Shown here: piece after piece, positions 28,361-43,028 of the stretch
How the letters are laid out: the number at the start of each line of letters is the position of its first letter
How positions within the stretch are numbered: the first letter of the stretch is position 1
Notes under the pieces: model-generated
The model's input: only the letters and a program-made list of their open reading frames with translations
Told to the model about the DNA's origin: nothing
Database searches by the model: none
Program-made: the position numbers and the translations under genes
Assembly (NCBI GenBank): GCA_003246755.1
Contig: QKDC01000161.1
Location: 1 to 45,522, forward strand
Direction of reading: 5' to 3'
Length of the DNA: 45,522 nt
Origin: Gemmatimonadota bacterium
GTDB taxonomy: Bacteria; Gemmatimonadota; Gemmatimonadetes; Gemmatimonadales; GWC2-71-9

Positions 28361-28831
28361 GTGAGCCGAAGCCTGAACAAAGTCATCCTCATTGGCAATT
28401 TGGGGGCTGATCCCGAAGTCCGCAGTACCTCCAGTGGGGCACGGGTGGCCACGATCTCCATCGCCACGAGCCGCACTTGGAATGACAAAGCTGGCGAACG
28501 TCAAGAAAAGACCGAGTGGCACCGGGTCGTTCTGTGGAACAACCGGGCCGGTGGGTTAGCCGACATCGTCGAGCGGTATTGCAAGAAGGGCGACAAAGTG
28601 TACGTCGAGGGCAGCATTGAGTACCGGTCATGGCAGGATCGGGAGGGACAAACGCGTTATACCACCGAAATCAGGGCGCGTGAACTCATCCTGCTCACCG
28701 GTCGATCGGCCGACGGGGCTGATTCCTATCAGGGTTCCAAAGTGGCGCCAGCCGCCACACCCGGGAAGGAAGAGTCCTTCGGCGAATTCCCGGAGGCACT
28801 TGATGGCGAGGAAGACGACCTTCCATTCTAG
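28361..28831 (+). CDS. ssb: Single-stranded DNA-binding protein
   Basis: This 156-residue protein coats single-stranded DNA during replication and repair. It begins SRSLNKVILIGNLGADPEVR, the first OB-fold strands, then WHRVVLWNN and KGDKVYVEGSIEYRSWQD. A disordered linker leads to the acidic tail EEDDLPF, the docking site for partner enzymes. The start is GTG at 28361 with the perfect GGAGGT (28351-28356). It has its own strong promoter. Its 3' end overlaps the LysM gene by 29 bases. Confidence 0.97.
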   Translation: MSRSLNKVILIGNLGADPEVRSTSSGARVATISIATSRTWNDKAGERQEKTEWHRVVLWNNRAGGLADIVERYCKKGDKVYVEGSIEYRSWQDREGQTRYTTEIRARELILLTGRSADGADSYQGSKVAPAATPGKEESFGEFPEALDGEEDDLPF

Positions 28832-30837: not shown

Positions 30838-31260
30838 ATGATGGGCACCAAAGCCGGACTCGGTCGGCGGGGGTCACTCCCCTTGACGGCAGACATCAAT
30901 GTCACGTCGCTGATGGATATCGCGTTCGTTCTCCTGATCATCTTCATGATCACCGCCCCGATGCTTCAGGGTGGTGTGGACGTCCAACTGCCCAAGGCGG
31001 TTGCCCGGCCCCTGACCACCAAGGAAGCCCTGATCATCACTGTCGACCGTTCAGGGAGGGTCTTCGTCGATCGTGAGGGAATGACGTTCGACGAATTTCA
31101 GGCAAGCCTCCCGGCCATCGTGGCGAGCCGGAGTCCGACCGGGGCGTACGTTCGGGGGGACAGTCGTGCGGAGTACGGAGCCGTCCTCCGGGTGCTCGCT
31201 GTGTTGCGCGAAGCCGGAATCGCAGACGTGGGTATGGTCGCCGAGGATGAGCGTCGGTGA
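30838..31260 (+). CDS. tolR: Tol-Pal system protein TolR
   Basis: This 140-residue ExbD/TolR-family protein begins with a short cytoplasmic tail and the block TADINVTSLMDIAFVLLIIFMI. That block holds the single membrane helix with the proton-carrying Asp (LMD) right at its start. The periplasmic domain (VDVQLPKA onward) ends with RAEYGAVLRVLAVLREAGIADV, the family's dimerisation part. The ATG lies one base after the tolQ stop; a second ATG three bases on is equally usable. The end overlaps tolA by 4 bases. Confidence 0.95.
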   Translation: MMGTKAGLGRRGSLPLTADINVTSLMDIAFVLLIIFMITAPMLQGGVDVQLPKAVARPLTTKEALIITVDRSGRVFVDREGMTFDEFQASLPAIVASRSPTGAYVRGDSRAEYGAVLRVLAVLREAGIADVGMVAEDERR

Positions 31261-31940
31261 GTCTCGGACTCCGCCACACCAACAGGGAAGAGGTCGTGGC
31301 GGGCCTCACCGGTGCCTTGGCGGCGCACCTGATCCTTGTCGCCATCGTTTTTCTGGCCGTCCGGCAGGTCCCACTGGACGGTACCGTCTATCGCGTCAAC
31401 CTGGTAGCGGCCCCGGCACCAACCCAAGCGCGGCGAGTGGCGCCGGAGGCGACGCCGCGACCGGTTGAACGCACCGCACCGATCGACCCCCCTCGGCCGA
31501 AGCCCGACGTGACCCCGCCACCGACCAAGACCGTACCGCAACCCCGAGTCGAGGCACCGGTCGAGACTGCGAATCCCGCCACGCCAATGCCTGATGAAAC
31601 CCCGTCCACGGGCGCCGACGTCGCAAATGTCAGTACACCAGGGGCCGATTTCCCCTTTCCCGAGTACCTCAGGAATATCGTGAATGAGATCTATCGTCGG
31701 TGGCAGCGGCCCGAGGGTGCTCCGAGCCTCCGCACCGAGATTCGGTTCGTGGTCCTGAGGGATGGGCTCGTGAAAGACATCGCGATCGCCACACGCTCAC
31801 GGAGCTTTTCTTTCGATCTCTCCGCGCAGGGTGCGGTGGAGGCGGCAGCCAACGCCAGCGCCTTCGGGCCTCTGCCTGAAGGGTTCATTGGTGATGCTCT
31901 GGCCATCTCCCTTTGGTTCAGGCCGCGGGGTACACCGTGA
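31257..31940 (+). CDS. tolA: TolA/TonB-type energy-transducing protein
   Basis: This 227-residue protein has one membrane helix near the N-terminus (AGLTGALAAHLILVAIVFLAV). A long proline-, threonine- and lysine-rich periplasmic arm follows (residues 60-125). The C-terminal globular domain is VNEIYRRWQRPEGA then RFVVLRDGLVKDIAI, which is the TonB/TolA C-terminal fold. It spans from TolQR to the outer membrane and links proton flow to TolB-Pal. The short arm (about 70 residues rather than more than 200 in E. coli TolA) looks like TonB, and only the operon context favours TolA. Starts at GTG 31257, overlapping tolR. Confidence 0.85.
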   Translation: MSLGLRHTNREEVVAGLTGALAAHLILVAIVFLAVRQVPLDGTVYRVNLVAAPAPTQARRVAPEATPRPVERTAPIDPPRPKPDVTPPPTKTVPQPRVEAPVETANPATPMPDETPSTGADVANVSTPGADFPFPEYLRNIVNEIYRRWQRPEGAPSLRTEIRFVVLRDGLVKDIAIATRSRSFSFDLSAQGAVEAAANASAFGPLPEGFIGDALAISLWFRPRGTP

Positions 31941-33223
31941 GGCGGGGTCTGCTGCTGGCGGTGGTGATGTGGTTCCCGTCGTTCACGAATGCCGCGGCTC
32001 AGGATACGACCCGGGCCGTCCTGCAACTACTGTACGACAACCCGCAAGTGCGCCCGACCCTGGTAGTCGTGCCGGTGGCGGGCCTCGACTCCGTGCGAAC
32101 CATCGTCGAGCGGGATCTCGATCAGAGTGATCGATTCGAGTTGATCCTGCTGCCGATGGTGAGCCAACCGATCGAACCTGGGGCGCTCAATCTGGCGCCC
32201 TACCGGGCCATGAATGCGGAACTCGCCCTCGAGATGGTACCCGCTGGGGGGGCGCTCGTGACCGTGCGACTCTATGATGTGGCCACGGGGTTGATCCGGA
32301 ATGAAGGCCTCATGGCCGTGGATTACACGGGGACCGGCGAAGGGAGGATGACCATCCATCGCCTGTCGGATGAAGTGGTCCGGTGGGCAACGGGGAAGGT
32401 CGGGATTGCAGCCACCAGGATCCTCTATGTGCTGGACAATCGGGTGTGGCTTGTCGATGCGGATGGCTACGGCCCACGCCCGTTGACCCCAGCCGGGCGG
32501 ACGGCGTATTCCCCTGCGTGGAGTCCCGATGGGCGACGGTTTGCGTATACGGAACTCGCGGATGGGAAGGGGTACGTCGTGCTCCAGAGTCTGACCTCGG
32601 GGAATCGGGTCGTGCTGCCAGGAACCGAGCAGACGATGAACATCACACCGTCCTTCTCGCCCGACGGTACCCATATCGCCTTTTCCAGGGTCATGAACGG
32701 TGCCTACGCGCTGCACAAGGCTGACGTCACCAATCTCTGCTGTGCGGAACGTCTCACCGGTGGTCGGTTTGCAGAAAACCTCTCTCCTACGTATTCTCCC
32801 GACGGACGGCGGATCGCGTTCGTCTCGACTCGCGCGGGCAGCCCCCAGATCTATGTCATGTCGTCGGATGGGACCAATCAGGAACTCCTGGTCCCGTTCG
32901 ATTACGGGATCACCGGGGCGTCGTTTGCACCGGAATGGTCGCCGGACGGCCTCAAACTGGTATTTCACCGATCGATGGGGTCCGGTTTCCAGGTCTTGGT
33001 CTTCGACATCACGAGTGACCGTGTCCGCCAGGTGACCTCCGAGGGCCGAAACGAAGATGCTTCCTGGGCCCCCGATGGTCGACACATTATTTTTACGTCC
33101 AGCCGATCGGGTGGTCGGCAACTGCATGTTCTCGATCTCGAAACCAGCCGGGTTCGGAGAATTCCAACTCCCGGAACTGCTCAACTCGCCACGTGGTCAC
33201 CGCGTTTGAGCGGGGCTCCGTAG
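31937..33223 (+). CDS. tolB: Tol-Pal system protein TolB
   Basis: This 428-residue periplasmic protein has the signal MRRGLLLAVVMWFPSFTNAA, followed by AAQ as cut site. The N-terminal domain (about 30-180) is the part that in other species binds TolA. It is followed by a six-bladed propeller whose blades are marked by repeats such as SPAWSPDGRRFAYTE, TPSFSPDGTHIAFSR, SPTYSPDGRRIAFVS, APEWSPDGLKLVFHR and DASWAPDGRHIIFTS. The propeller binds Pal. I choose GTG 31937, which overlaps the tolA stop, rather than an upstream TTG that would spoil the signal peptide. Confidence 0.95.
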   Translation: MRRGLLLAVVMWFPSFTNAAAQDTTRAVLQLLYDNPQVRPTLVVVPVAGLDSVRTIVERDLDQSDRFELILLPMVSQPIEPGALNLAPYRAMNAELALEMVPAGGALVTVRLYDVATGLIRNEGLMAVDYTGTGEGRMTIHRLSDEVVRWATGKVGIAATRILYVLDNRVWLVDADGYGPRPLTPAGRTAYSPAWSPDGRRFAYTELADGKGYVVLQSLTSGNRVVLPGTEQTMNITPSFSPDGTHIAFSRVMNGAYALHKADVTNLCCAERLTGGRFAENLSPTYSPDGRRIAFVSTRAGSPQIYVMSSDGTNQELLVPFDYGITGASFAPEWSPDGLKLVFHRSMGSGFQVLVFDITSDRVRQVTSEGRNEDASWAPDGRHIIFTSSRSGGRQLHVLDLETSRVRRIPTPGTAQLATWSPRLSGAP

Positions 33224-33247
33224 CAGATCCTTCAAGGAGGCTCAACT

Positions 33248-33814
33248 GTGTCCCTGCGCGCTGCGTTGTTCTCACTGGTCTCTGGTGGACTCCTCGTTGC
33301 CGGGTGTAGCAAGAAAGTGGAACCGGTCGTGACGCCTCCGCCGGTGGAGACCACGACTCCGACCCCGCAACCGCCGCCGCCACCGCCACCACCACCGAGT
33401 ACCGAACCAACCTGTGAGCAGGTGATCACACGGATGGTGTCCGAGTTGGCTGCCTTGGTGCATTTCGACACCGACAAGTTCGACATCCGTCCCGGCGATG
33501 CCACCGTGTTGGATGGCAAGGCCAGCATCCTGCAGTCGCATCCGCAGGTCCGGGTCCGCATCACGGGCCATGCTGACGAGCGGTACACCGCCGAGTACAA
33601 CCTGGTGCTCGGGACCAAGCGGGCCGAATCCGCCAAGAGCTATCTGGTCTCCAAGGGTGTGAGTGGTGGTCGGATGGAGACCGCCAGCCTCGGTGAGACG
33701 GCTCCGCTCGACCCGGGGCATACGGAAGCGGCATGGTCCCGCAATCGTCGAGCGGAAGTCTCGGTGATCGCCGGCCGCAGCACGCTGGCCTCCCATCTCG
33801 CCCGGTGTCAGTGA
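33248..33814 (+). CDS. pal: Peptidoglycan-associated lipoprotein Pal
   Basis: This 188-residue outer-membrane lipoprotein has the signal SLRAALFSLVSGGLLVAGC with lipobox V-A-G-C and lipidated Cys20. A disordered linker follows with a run of nine prolines. The OmpA-like domain at about 65-175 begins VHFDTDKFDIRPGD and contains VRITGHADERYTAEYNLVLGTKRAESAKSYL, the strand and helices that grip diaminopimelate in peptidoglycan, and later WSRNRRAEV. The start is GTG 33248 with AAGGAGG seven bases upstream. The end overlaps cpoB by 4 bases. Confidence 0.97.
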   Translation: MSLRAALFSLVSGGLLVAGCSKKVEPVVTPPPVETTTPTPQPPPPPPPPPSTEPTCEQVITRMVSELAALVHFDTDKFDIRPGDATVLDGKASILQSHPQVRVRITGHADERYTAEYNLVLGTKRAESAKSYLVSKGVSGGRMETASLGETAPLDPGHTEAAWSRNRRAEVSVIAGRSTLASHLARCQ

Positions 33815-34596
33815 CCCGAAACGCGGTCAGTGTGATTGCCACGGCGCTCGTGGTGGCGGGGTGTGCCACCAAGGGCGCCGTGCAGCAAGTACAGACCGAG
33901 CTCGTCGTCTTGCGGACCCAGATGGCCAGACAGGATTCCGCCCGGGCCGCCGAACTCGGTCGCATCATCGCGCTGCAGCAGCGGACCCTCGACTCGCTCG
34001 AATCCACCCGGGAGTCCGTCCGCCAAGCGAGGACCGAACTCCGGGGTGACCACCTCGATATCCAAGCGTCGCTCGTCACCATCCAGGAGCTCACCGGTCA
34101 GAGTCAACGCCGGCTCAGCGAACTCCGCCGCCAGATCGACGACCGACTCGAGCGGATGGCCTCGGACACGTTGGTGACGTCCATTCCAGACTCCGGCGTC
34201 TCCGTTCCCACTCCGTTGACCCCGACTCCCGATCAGCTGTTCCAAGCCTCACTCCAGGAACTGCGGAGAGGGAGCCTCGGGACTGCCCGGGCCGGGTTTC
34301 ACGAGTACCTCCGGTCGTACCCCACTCACGGGCAAGTCCCGGATGCCCTCTACTATCTCGGGGAGACATTCTCGGTTGATGCCGCCGATTCTGCCATGGC
34401 ATACTGGCGGGAGGTCGTCGAGCGTTTTCCCAACACGGCCAGGGCTCCTACTGCGCTGTACAAGACGGGCCTGAGTGCGGAACAGCAGGGCGACCGTGCC
34501 GCCGCCCGGGCTGCCTACCAACGGGTCATCCAGCAGTATCCTCGCTCCGACGAAGCGGATCTCGCCCGGAACCGGCTGGCCTCGCTCCGGCCCTGA
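33811..34596 (+). CDS. cpoB: Cell division coordinator CpoB-like (YbgF) lipoprotein
   Basis: This 261-residue protein links Tol-Pal action to peptidoglycan synthesis at division in other bacteria. The start at GTG 33811 overlaps the pal stop by 4 bases and gives VIATALVVAGC, a lipobox, so it may be lipid-anchored, unlike the soluble E. coli form. A coiled-coil region rich in Gln/Arg/Leu (about 30-130, SQRRLSELRRQIDDRLERM) would trimerise. TPR repeats follow: LFQASLQELRRGSLGTARAGFHEYLRSYP, DALYYLGETFSV and AYQRVIQQYPRSDEAD. That order is the CpoB arrangement. Confidence 0.88.
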   Translation: MTRNAVSVIATALVVAGCATKGAVQQVQTELVVLRTQMARQDSARAAELGRIIALQQRTLDSLESTRESVRQARTELRGDHLDIQASLVTIQELTGQSQRRLSELRRQIDDRLERMASDTLVTSIPDSGVSVPTPLTPTPDQLFQASLQELRRGSLGTARAGFHEYLRSYPTHGQVPDALYYLGETFSVDAADSAMAYWREVVERFPNTARAPTALYKTGLSAEQQGDRAAARAAYQRVIQQYPRSDEADLARNRLASLRP

Positions 34597-34614: not shown

Positions 34615-37600
34615 ATGAAGACATCTACCGGTGAAATGCCATTCCTCGATCATCTCGAGGAATTGCGGGTACGCATTCTCCGCTCCCTTATTGCCCTGGT
34701 GGTCGGGGTGGGTCTCGGATTCTGGCTGGTGCAGCGTTTTCGCCTCGTCGCACTCCTCAAGACACCCATTGCTTCGTACCTCCCTGACGGGAAGTTGGTC
34801 GTGCTCAGCCCGACCGACCCCGTGATGATCGTGCTGAAACTCTCGTTCATCGTCGGACTCGTGCTGGTCGCGCCGATTCTGATATGGCAGGTCTGGGCTT
34901 TCCTGACGCCCGCACTCTACGAGAAGGAAAAGAAGACCCTGGTGCCGGCGCTTGGGGTGGGCCTGGTGCTGTTTCTTTTGGGGGCTGCCGGCGCATGGCT
35001 CTTCATCGTGCCCAAAGCGCTCGCCGTCCTGCTCAGCTTCCAGGCTGAGTCGTTCGCCATGATGATCACGTACGAGAAGTACTTCGGGTTCGTGCTGCAG
35101 ATCGTGCTCGCCATGGGGATTTCGGCGGAGCTTCCACTCCTCCTCATCATTCTCACCGCGCTCGGGGTGGTTACCCCCGAGAAACTTGGGCGGTTCCGGC
35201 GGGTCGCAGTGGTGCTCTCCTGTGTCGCGGGCGCCTTCTTGTCCCCAGGGGCAGACATCTTCTCGATGATCTTCATGACCGTGCCCCTGTTGCTACTCTA
35301 CGAAGTCGGCGTGGCGGGATCGATTGTGGTGCATCGTCGTCGGCTCCGGCGGGCCGCGGCCACCGGGTTGATGGTGCTCCTGGCCGGCGGCCTGTTTGCT
35401 GGCGAAGCGGAGGCGCAAGCGACCCAGCCCGGCCAGCTTCCGCCGCAACGCCAGGACACTACTCGTGCCCCGAGACAACTGGACGTGGCGAGTGCAAGGC
35501 GGATGGGTCTCCCGACGGCACCCACGAAGACCTTCCCATCGCCCGACTCGGTGATGGCCGCGCTCTTCGACCGGAAAGGCTTCACGCGAACGCGGTACAT
35601 GGCCGATACCGCGACGATATCCGGGGTCACGCGCCGTCTTCGTCTCACGGGGGATGCCGTGACCGAACGAGGGACCACGATCCTGGAAGCGGAATCGATC
35701 AGTTACTTGGAGGCGAGTTGTGATCTGCTTGCCGATGGGGACCCTCGACTCTTCGATCAGGGCATGATCCTCGTCGGAGGGGGGATCCGATATGACACCT
35801 GTGTCGAGCGCGGCATCGTGGGGGATGCGCTGACCTCCTTTTCCGAGGTGGGCTCCGATTGGTTTCTGCGGGGCAATCTGGGGGTCGACTCCTCCTCCAA
35901 CCGGATCTTTGCCGCGTCGAGTGAGATCACGAGTTGTGACCTTCCCGTCGCCCATTACCATTTTCAGGCCAAGGAGATCAAGTGGGTCTCCTCATCGCTG
36001 ATCGTGGCCCGCCCGGCGGTGCTCTACATCCGCGATGTCCCGGTCGCGTGGTTGCCTTTCATCTTCCAGGAGACCAAACCCGGTCGCCGCTCGGGGATCC
36101 TCGTGCCCCAGTTTGGATTCAATGACATCGTCCGACCCAACCAGGGGTACAGTCGGCAAATCACCGACTTCGGGTATTACTTCGCCATCAGTGATTATCT
36201 CGATGCCGCGGTGCGTGCCGACTGGTATGCCGGTCGCTACTTCCGATGGTCGGCGCGATCGCAATACCGACTGCGCGAGCGGTTCCTCGAGGGGTCGGCG
36301 GAAGTCAGTCGCCAACATGAATCGGGCGGGGCCGTGTCGACCAGTGTCCGCTGGGGTCACCGGCAGAGTTTCGGGTTGACCACGACGCTCTCGATGAACG
36401 TGAATTTCAGCACCAACACCAGTGTGGTCGCGAACAACGCCGTCGATCCCTTCCTGAGTACCCAACAGTTGGCCAGTGACATGAACCTCACCAAGCGCTT
36501 TCGGTGGGGAACCCTCTCGTTGGGTGGTCGGCGGCGGCAGACCCTGGGTGACGACCAGGTCTCACAGCAGTTTCCTGCGTTGGCTCTCACGCCGAAACCC
36601 CTGGCGATCTCCCAGTGGGCCACGTGGTCGCCGACGGTCCGGTTCTCAAACGATGTCGCGAGTCAGGCCAAGAAGTTCCTCGCGATCCCGCGGCCGACGG
36701 GGGGGATTGATTCGGTCGAAGTCACGCCCCGAACCCGGAACTCGGTTTTCAATCTCGACACCCCGCTGCGGTTCGGCAGCTTCAACTGGCGCAACACGGT
36801 TTCGATTCGGGATGCCGAGGCAACGTCTTCCGCCACCATTACCACCAAGGTGCCCAACGAGGCGACCCTGGATCCCACGGATTCGATCGCGGTAACCCGC
36901 CTGGTCGCGGGCACCTTTTCGACGACGCTCAACTGGGACACCGGGATCAACCTCCCGCTCTTCGCCAGGAGCACCTGGAAGATCACGCCCACCATCGGCA
37001 TTACCAACACGACATCGGGTGAGTTCGCGATCCGTAACGAAAGGACCGGGGGGGCCTGGGTCACCCAAGGGAAACGATTCACCTTTGGCCTCTCTGCGGC
37101 GCCCTCGCTCTTCGCCTTTCTGCCGGGGATCGGGCCCATCGAGCGTATCCGGCACACGGTTTCGCCCCTGATCATCTGGGAGTATGCGCCGGCTGCCACG
37201 GTCCCGGAGGAATACGCCAATGCGTTGGCCGCGAACACCGGGACCGTGGCACAACTGGAAAGTCCCGCACGGCAGCGGATCAGCATCTCGCTGTCGCAGA
37301 ACTTCGAGGCCAAAGAGAAGCGGGCCCCGGGGGATACATCCAGCACCACCCAGCAGCGGAAGTACCGACTCCTGGGCATCAATACGAGCGCCTTGTCCTA
37401 TGATTTCGAGCAGGCCAAGGAAGAGGGGCGGACGGGCTGGCAGGATCCGACAATCACCAACACCATCCAGAGTGATCTCCTCCCAGGGTTCAATCTCTCG
37501 GTGAGCCACAGCCTCTGGGATGGGGTCGTGGGCACCGACGAGGCGAAGTTCGATCCCTTCCTGCAATCGGTCAACACGAGTTTCTCGGTTTCGGGTTCGA

Positions 37601-38103
37601 CTCTCCGATCCATCGGACGTCTCTTCGGTCTGTCCAGTGCCCCCGAACCACCGGCGCGGGGCCGGGCGACGCAGGACTCCCGGGGGGCACCGAGCTCCTA
37701 CATCAACGATCCACGAAACCAGATGCAGCAGCGAACGCTGATGGCGACGAATCAACTCACTGGTGCGCGACGACCGTTCAACATGAACATCAATTTTTCC
37801 ATGAACCGGCTGCGTCCGTTGGCGGGATCGGAAGATGGGCCCGTGACCAAGAGCAACATCGGGTTCAACACGAGCTTCTCGCCAACGGCTTTTTGGGGTG
37901 TGTCGTGGACCACGCAATTCAATGTCACCGAGAAGGCGTTCGAGGCACACATCATCCGACTCGAGCGTGATCTTCACGATTGGCGGGCTGGATTCAATTT
38001 CGTCAAGAATCCCAATGGGAACTTTGCGTTCTACTTTTCGGTCCATCTGGTAGATCTCCCAGATCTCAAAGTGGACTACAACCAGACATCGATCAGCCGA
38101 TAA
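34615..38103 (+). CDS. tatC-lptD: TatC-LptD fusion: Tat translocase subunit joined to LPS-assembly outer-membrane protein
   Basis: One open frame of 1162 codons. Residues 1-240 are a complete TatC: FLDHLEELRVRI at the N-terminus, six membrane spans, LTPALYEKEKK with Glu103, and the last span near 220-236. TatC binds twin-arginine signals. Residues 241-267 (RRRLRRAAATGLMVLLAGG, then LFAGEAEA) look like a signal peptide: positive start, hydrophobic core, and A-E-A before Q268. Residues 268-1162 are LptD: an OstA-like domain (about 330-470), the SSLIVARPAVLYIRDVPVAW and FQETKPGRRSGILVP blocks that mark LptD, then a long beta-barrel rich in alternating strands. There is no stop or frameshift between. 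An internal GTG at 35326 (with GGCGGGA upstream) could give a separate LptD. Usual lengths are about 250 for TatC and 780-900 for LptD, so both are whole. Confidence 0.92.
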   Translation: MKTSTGEMPFLDHLEELRVRILRSLIALVVGVGLGFWLVQRFRLVALLKTPIASYLPDGKLVVLSPTDPVMIVLKLSFIVGLVLVAPILIWQVWAFLTPALYEKEKKTLVPALGVGLVLFLLGAAGAWLFIVPKALAVLLSFQAESFAMMITYEKYFGFVLQIVLAMGISAELPLLLIILTALGVVTPEKLGRFRRVAVVLSCVAGAFLSPGADIFSMIFMTVPLLLLYEVGVAGSIVVHRRRLRRAAATGLMVLLAGGLFAGEAEAQATQPGQLPPQRQDTTRAPRQLDVASARRMGLPTAPTKTFPSPDSVMAALFDRKGFTRTRYMADTATISGVTRRLRLTGDAVTERGTTILEAESISYLEASCDLLADGDPRLFDQGMILVGGGIRYDTCVERGIVGDALTSFSEVGSDWFLRGNLGVDSSSNRIFAASSEITSCDLPVAHYHFQAKEIKWVSSSLIVARPAVLYIRDVPVAWLPFIFQETKPGRRSGILVPQFGFNDIVRPNQGYSRQITDFGYYFAISDYLDAAVRADWYAGRYFRWSARSQYRLRERFLEGSAEVSRQHESGGAVSTSVRWGHRQSFGLTTTLSMNVNFSTNTSVVANNAVDPFLSTQQLASDMNLTKRFRWGTLSLGGRRRQTLGDDQVSQQFPALALTPKPLAISQWATWSPTVRFSNDVASQAKKFLAIPRPTGGIDSVEVTPRTRNSVFNLDTPLRFGSFNWRNTVSIRDAEATSSATITTKVPNEATLDPTDSIAVTRLVAGTFSTTLNWDTGINLPLFARSTWKITPTIGITNTTSGEFAIRNERTGGAWVTQGKRFTFGLSAAPSLFAFLPGIGPIERIRHTVSPLIIWEYAPAATVPEEYANALAANTGTVAQLESPARQRISISLSQNFEAKEKRAPGDTSSTTQQRKYRLLGINTSALSYDFEQAKEEGRTGWQDPTITNTIQSDLLPGFNLSVSHSLWDGVVGTDEAKFDPFLQSVNTSFSVSGSTLRSIGRLFGLSSAPEPPARGRATQDSRGAPSSYINDPRNQMQQRTLMATNQLTGARRPFNMNINFSMNRLRPLAGSEDGPVTKSNIGFNTSFSPTAFWGVSWTTQFNVTEKAFEAHIIRLERDLHDWRAGFNFVKNPNGNFAFYFSVHLVDLPDLKVDYNQTSISR

Positions 38104-42776: not shown

Positions 42777-43028
42777 ATGTTTGGGAATCTCGGTTTCGGC
42801 GAAATCCTCGTCATCATGCTGGTTGTGCTCGTCGTGTTCGGGGCACGACGTCTTCCGGAAATCGGTGCCTCGATGGGGAAGGGGATCCGCGAGTTCAAGC
42901 GCAGCATCACCGAAGTGACCGACTCGGTCTCGGAAGTACCACCTGAGAATCGATCCCCAGGACGGCAACTCGACGGAACGCCGGAGACCACTTCAACCAC
43001 GGGCGAGCCCAAGCGGCTCTCACAGTAG
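42777..43028 (+). CDS. tatA: Sec-independent translocase subunit TatA
   Basis: This 83-residue protein begins FGNLGFGEILVIMLVVLVVFG, the short N-terminal membrane helix. The hinge is ARRLPEIGASMGKGIREFKRSITE, the amphipathic helix whose F-G-x-x-x-L/P-E-I and G-K-x-x-x-x-F-K patterns are diagnostic of TatA. A short disordered polar tail follows. TatA forms the pore through which folded proteins pass after TatC picks them. GGAG lies eight bases upstream of ATG 42777. No TatB is in the window, so a two-part TatA-TatC system is possible. A terminator follows within 30 bases. Confidence 0.95.
   Translation: MFGNLGFGEILVIMLVVLVVFGARRLPEIGASMGKGIREFKRSITEVTDSVSEVPPENRSPGRQLDGTPETTSTTGEPKRLSQ

Follow-up and report, generated by a model that had tools for sequence, protein, structure and literature searches.

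TatC, the inner-membrane receptor subunit of the Tat translocase, and LptD, an outer-membrane barrel, are encoded by one uninterrupted frame in a Gemmatimonadota genome. The frame lies in the window, a stretch of 45,522 nucleotides that makes up positions 1 to 45,522 of contig QKDC01000161.1. Its product is very likely a polyprotein from a fused tatC/lptD pair, which signal peptidase I would cut into an inner-membrane TatC and a periplasmic LptD. The fused frame is conserved among the relatives of this bacterium, and its junction keeps the layout of a signal peptide.

The fused frame and its two domains

The frame runs on the forward strand from ATG to TAA, with 1162 codons and no internal stops (Table 1). 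Its first part is a full-length TatC. The Pfam model PF00902 (TatC) matches residues 12-224 over its entire length (profile positions 1-208 of 208, E=5e-57), and TIGR00945, the NCBIfam TatC equivalog, scores 194.7 bits against a cut-off of 132.7. The PDB TatC 4b4a aligns with residues 8-234 (E=4e-47). Foldseek recovers the six-helix TatC fold of 4hts with a TM-score of 0.79 over 230 columns at 36% identity. The TatC-family invariant residues E105, F96, and P99 are present in A1, an independent alignment of 29 sequences.

The second part is LptD. PF19838 (LptD_2) matches residues 463-932 (E=1e-39, 137 bits against a cut-off of 22.5), and an LptD model match is seen in all 29 fused members tested. 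A profile of 29 fused proteins finds the PDB LptD 7omm with E=3e-9, and the same profile also finds TatC PDB entries. The best Foldseek matches for this part are LptD structures, including 8h1s with E=5e-25. In the AlphaFold2 model (mean pLDDT 72), the TatC helical bundle is followed by a disordered stretch at residues 250-298 and then by a beta domain and a barrel. The mature LptD would thus consist of a disordered Pro-rich linker, a periplasmic beta domain at about residues 326-486, and a barrel at about 499-1145. TatC and LptD are modeled as two independent domains with the disordered stretch between them. A separate seventh membrane helix is absent from the model. TM6 is extended there with low confidence, and the model is uninformative on the topology of residues 240-267.

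The first-pass annotation of this DNA had described an intact TatC (residues 1-240) running into an intact LptD (from about residue 268) with no stop or frameshift. The single frame and the matches to both domain models bear this out, and its boundaries agree with the domain analysis and with the junction analysis below.

Table 1. Features of the fused locus and its surroundings (window coordinates)
Feature	Position	Strand	Basis or remark
TatC-LptD precursor frame	34615..38103	+	1162 aa; fused in 78/85 informative genomes of the family
TatC part, residues 1-239, six-span Tat receptor subunit	34615..35331	+	PF00902, PDB 4b4a, Foldseek 4hts
Basic TatC C-tail HRRRLRR, residues 240-246, putatively doubling as n-region	35332..35352	+	basic residues in fused junctions
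Putative hydrophobic h-region AAATGLMVLLAGGLFAG, residues 247-263	35353..35403	+	hydropathy peak
Predicted signal peptidase I site EAEA/Q, cut A267/Q268	35404..35418	+	residues at -1 and -3, Q268 invariance
Predicted mature LptD, residues 268-1162	35416..38100	+	PF19838, PDB 7omm, AlphaFold2, Foldseek 8h1s
CpoB/YbgF-like gene, end of tol-pal cluster, directly upstream of the fusion	33733..34596	+	domain match
TolR; TonB_2-domain protein; TolB; Pal	30838; 31257; 31913; 33248		tol-pal cluster upstream of the fusion
TatA domain	42789..42923	+	PF02416, E=2e-16; sole TatA/B found in genome

The junction as a probable retained signal peptide

Judged from its sequence, the join at residues 240-268, HRRRLRRAAATGLMVLLAGGLFAGEAEA/Q (the slash marks the predicted cut), is likely a retained Sec signal peptide. 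After the last TatC span, which ends at about residue 239, the sequence reads HRRRLRR-AAATGLMVLLAGGLFAG-EAEA/QATQ. The order of TM6, basic tail, hydrophobic stretch, small residue, and Gln recurs in every complete fused junction examined, and other junctions show it with different letters, e.g., SRRRARRIAAATMVVLVLGLGGASLHA/QNP and HKRRTRAAAAAASALLILWLLLPAPLAA/QQP. The n-region is basic in all 78 scored fused junctions; it carries at least three basic residues in 77 of them, mostly four to six Arg or Lys. The peak hydropathy of the h-region over 12 residues has a mean of 2.53 and a minimum of 1.88 in the 78 fused proteins. Ala occupies position -1 in 71 of these junctions, and position -3 holds Leu, Ala, or Val in 72. 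Gln at +1 is present in this set by construction because the scoring pattern demanded [AGST]Q. In the independent alignment A1, Q268 is invariant.

TatC shows a pairwise identity of 57%, and LptD and its barrel about 50%. The n-region reaches 41%, and the h-region has the lowest value, 30%. The low value in the h-region is explained if hydrophobicity alone is selected there, as is typical for signal peptides. A profile built from the signal peptides of separate LptDs in other members of the phylum matches best at the junction in 61 of 79 full-length fused proteins; this profile is small, its scores are weak, and it is used as supporting evidence alone. The same type of signal peptidase I site is found in 37 of 50 separate LptDs outside the family.

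The junction also bears on the idea of an uncut product, in which a Pro-rich linker would act as a tether between an inner-membrane TatC and an outer-membrane LptD. Downstream of the predicted cut lies a long, disordered linker rich in Pro, and by a rough estimate, about 50 extended residues could reach across a good part of the periplasm. However, all junctions retain the signal peptidase I signature, conservation is lowest in the h-region, and four lineages have re-split the two genes without obvious loss, which makes a tether very improbable. The first-pass annotation had pointed to a paradox of two membranes. It is right that a single fusion cannot sit in both and that the product must be cut or made as two pieces, but the likely solution, a join that itself forms a signal peptide ending in a signal peptidase I site, was missed.

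In this phylum, Gln tends to be the residue that cleavage at predicted signal peptidase I sites would expose. Examples in the window are the fused junction (35416), TolB at 31913 (NAAA/QDTT), and a LysM-like protein at 28617 (LPASA/QVTS). Exposure of Gln after signal peptidase I cleavage, called the Q-rule, has been reported as Bacteroidetes-specific (PMC5837995). The fusion resembles the proteins that follow this rule in having Gln at the mature N-terminus after the predicted cut. The text of that paper does not mention Gemmatimonadota.

Distribution among relatives

TatC was scanned in 395 genomes of the phylum and in 102 genomes of the window's family (f1). Throughout f1, TatC sits in frames of about 1170-1400 codons. 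TatC and LptD share one frame in the window and in 78 of the 85 informative f1 genomes. The remainder comprises six genomes with separate adjacent genes and one without lptD beside tatC, and three more loci end at a contig edge. The carriers are metagenome-assembled genomes (MAGs) of Gemmatimonadales/Gemmatimonadota from many projects, nearly all uncultured, and the family is one of soil and water bacteria. The fused frame is also found in single-contig assemblies, such as G415 (probably CP070716.1, a complete chromosome).

The ancestral genes overlap by a few bases, and one indel in sequencing or assembly that deleted the tatC stop could join the frames. The comparative data refute an assembly error of this kind and leave it a practically negligible probability, since 78 family genomes, sequenced in many projects by many laboratories, carry the same open frame, and the phylogeny is consistent. 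The spread through f1 also rules out a fusion limited to one genus or strain. The fusion is a trait of a lineage, as had been suggested from the sequence of the window.

Outside f1, the listed TatC frames end after about 255-530 codons, with the exception of genus g35, where one TatC frame has 1272 codons, another has 1436, and that of G385 reaches the contig end. A search of Gemmatimonadota for TatC and LptD in one protein, as proposed in the first-pass annotation, thus finds it throughout f1 and again in g35. At 50 loci from outside the family that were read in detail, the lptD start adjoins the tatC stop, and the two often overlap (...GTGATG). Relatives with separate genes and a stop between them, which that annotation had raised as an objection to the fusion, therefore exist outside f1, and the fusion within f1 is unaffected by them.

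Two genomes depart from these arrangements. At the tatC locus of G043 (L265), no lptD follows directly, which breaks with the pairing seen across the phylum. In G018 (L066, L160), an f1 member, TatC groups with family f2, and lptD stands alone elsewhere, apparently beside a hutH-like gene. Probably tatC was replaced through transfer in this genome, or the contig was mis-binned.

Evolutionary history

Comparison of the loci suggests that tatC and lptD ancestrally adjoined, usually with an overlap, in an envelope-biogenesis cluster. Since lptD lies directly downstream of tatC almost always at the loci examined outside f1, the fusion would have joined two long-standing neighbors. On a tree of 94 concatenated TatC and LptD sequences, the fused and separate states require five changes. 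In 500 shuffles the mean was 17.6 changes, and none was as low as the observed value. The history is most simply read as one fusion near the base of f1 followed by four re-splits.

The re-splits are nested within the fused clade, in g29 (G271, G400), g26 (G198, G405), g19 (G120), and in G041 of the otherwise fused g11. The re-split genes abut or overlap, and in all four cases lptD begins just before the same signal peptide. An independent second fusion is found in g35, a genus of family f2, which belongs to the same order. In a second tree with more f2 genomes, the fused G028 and G170 are together sister to G248 and G290, which have separate genes. G385, also of g35, shows the same fused junction up to the contig end. 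The loci of the second fusion are L249, L250, and L251 (G028, G170, and G385, respectively), together with L243 and L245, the last from a DeepCast 50 m MAG. The junction in G028, G170, and G385 reads VHRRR[IM]RR..AQ. The second fusion has VHRRRIRRIGVAAVVLLLGGGMPMRLDA/QPP at the join and the same signal-peptide layout.

Internal translation starts

LptD could also be made with its own signal peptide by internal initiation at a GTG, TTG, or ATG in the junction, the continuous frame then being incidental. We counted, for each fused genome, the in-frame ATG, GTG, and TTG codons from which LptD would still start with a usable signal peptide. The best Shine-Dalgarno duplex was also recorded. As a control, the same protein was encoded with codons redrawn from the gene's own usage. 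Usable starts number 0.90 per genome against 0.94 after randomization in the 78 fused genomes, and they are absent from 26 of these (33%, with 33% expected). The duplex energy is -3.5, compared with an expected -3.1. An apparent enrichment of a Shine-Dalgarno sequence at the junction came mostly from Arg- and Val-rich codons, and the randomization removed most of the signal. No conserved internal start at the junction was found across the 78 fused genomes.

Some features do favor internal initiation. In the window, in-frame GTG codons that could serve as starts lie just before HRRR (near residues 238-239), with a duplex energy of -5.3. The four re-split lineages start lptD in the junction region, and separate genes elsewhere overlap in a similar way. 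However, usable starts are no commoner than in the controls, the Shine-Dalgarno signal is not clearly enriched, and initiation of this kind would leave stops free to arise between the two genes, yet the frame is open in 78 of 85 genomes. Overall, internal initiation is an unlikely source of LptD, although one with some real chance of being correct. It does not appear to be a conserved feature, and in this genome it may possibly occur from the GTG before HRRR.

Genomic context

The genome is 3.15 Mb in size and about 96% complete. Neither a second TatC nor a second LptD was found in it; the fused frame is therefore the sole source found for both. A signal peptidase I is present. The TatC part, the sole TatC found, would putatively function in Tat export, and a TatA is encoded in the same window.

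Of the LPS transport components, LptF/G are present. No match in the genome was obtained with the LptA/LptD_N model (PF03968) or with the LptE model (PF04390), which matches just 3 of 14 control genomes. While LptD, LptF, and LptG are present, other components of this bridge may be divergent or missing.

The tol-pal-cpoB cluster (30838-34596) lies immediately upstream of the fused frame. A CpoB-like gene precedes tatC at 85 of 88 family loci and at 29 of 32 other loci in a sample of the phylum. The earlier statement that Tat and LPS export have no known link is to be amended for this phylum, where at the loci examined outside f1 lptD follows tatC almost always, downstream of tol-pal-cpoB.

Proposed biogenesis of the two proteins

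Both ends of TatC are cytoplasmic, and a basic stretch with one hydrophobic segment places the next part of a chain in the periplasm. Signal peptidase I acts in the periplasm. In the route that we favor, processing of a polyprotein, the tatC stop was lost near the base of f1 and the neighboring genes became one, which would now be translated as a single chain. The TatC part would insert through SecYEG, its two ends remaining cytoplasmic, and its basic C-tail would serve as the n-region of the retained LptD signal peptide. The hydrophobic segment would then cross the membrane once more, and LptD would be threaded into the periplasm as a C-terminal passenger. Signal peptidase I would cut after A267, leaving TatC with a short seventh segment, and the freed LptD would be delivered to the outer membrane. 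In E. coli, a fused periplasmic enzyme was released from engineered constructs in which a multi-span protein carried a signal peptidase I site behind its final span (PMC5449189).

A putative shared precursor would plausibly supply TatC and LptD in equal amounts. Any benefit may lie in this fixed dosage or in the targeting of LptD to the membrane. It is a long shot that the fusion stays partly or wholly uncut and couples the Tat translocase, across the periplasm, to LPS export, or that regulated cleavage makes the output of LptD to the outer membrane depend on TatC assembly.

Implications

The fused frame appears to encode a naturally occurring polyprotein of bacteria, a single chain that would supply an inner-membrane translocase subunit and the sole LptD found by search. 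The fusion seems to have been fixed in a whole family, to have arisen twice in the phylum, and to have been reversed four times. As a natural experiment, it may show whether co-translational delivery to SecYEG in a membrane-anchored form is tolerated by LptD, and how signal peptidase handles a signal located behind six membrane spans. The fusion is also a pitfall for annotation. When such a frame is named TatC, the organism may be reported as being without LptD, which affects claims about its outer membrane.

Comparison with known systems

A published TatC-LptD fusion was not found in the literature searched, which was largely that of open-access journals. Compared with the TatC family (PF00902, TIGR00945), the free cytoplasmic C-tail is shortened in the fusion and runs into the signal peptide. 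Like known LptDs (PF19838; 7omm, 8h1s, 4q35), the second part has a periplasmic beta domain, a large barrel, and a signal peptide with a signal peptidase I site. However, the signal peptide is internal in the fusion, whereas it is N-terminal in the usual LptD.

The closest known parallel appears to be FbcH of Bradyrhizobium japonicum. FbcH is a precursor of cytochrome b and cytochrome c1 that is cut by signal peptidase at an internal signal sequence. In both cases, a polytopic inner-membrane protein and an exported protein share one frame with a retained internal signal peptide, the cut being a predicted one in the TatC-LptD fusion. The halves of FbcH belong to one complex in one membrane. In contrast, TatC and LptD would go to different membranes and serve unrelated pathways, and one of them is an outer-membrane barrel. 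What appears new relative to fusions of the FbcH type is this separation of the halves by membrane and pathway, together with the double origin of the fusion and its repeated reversal.
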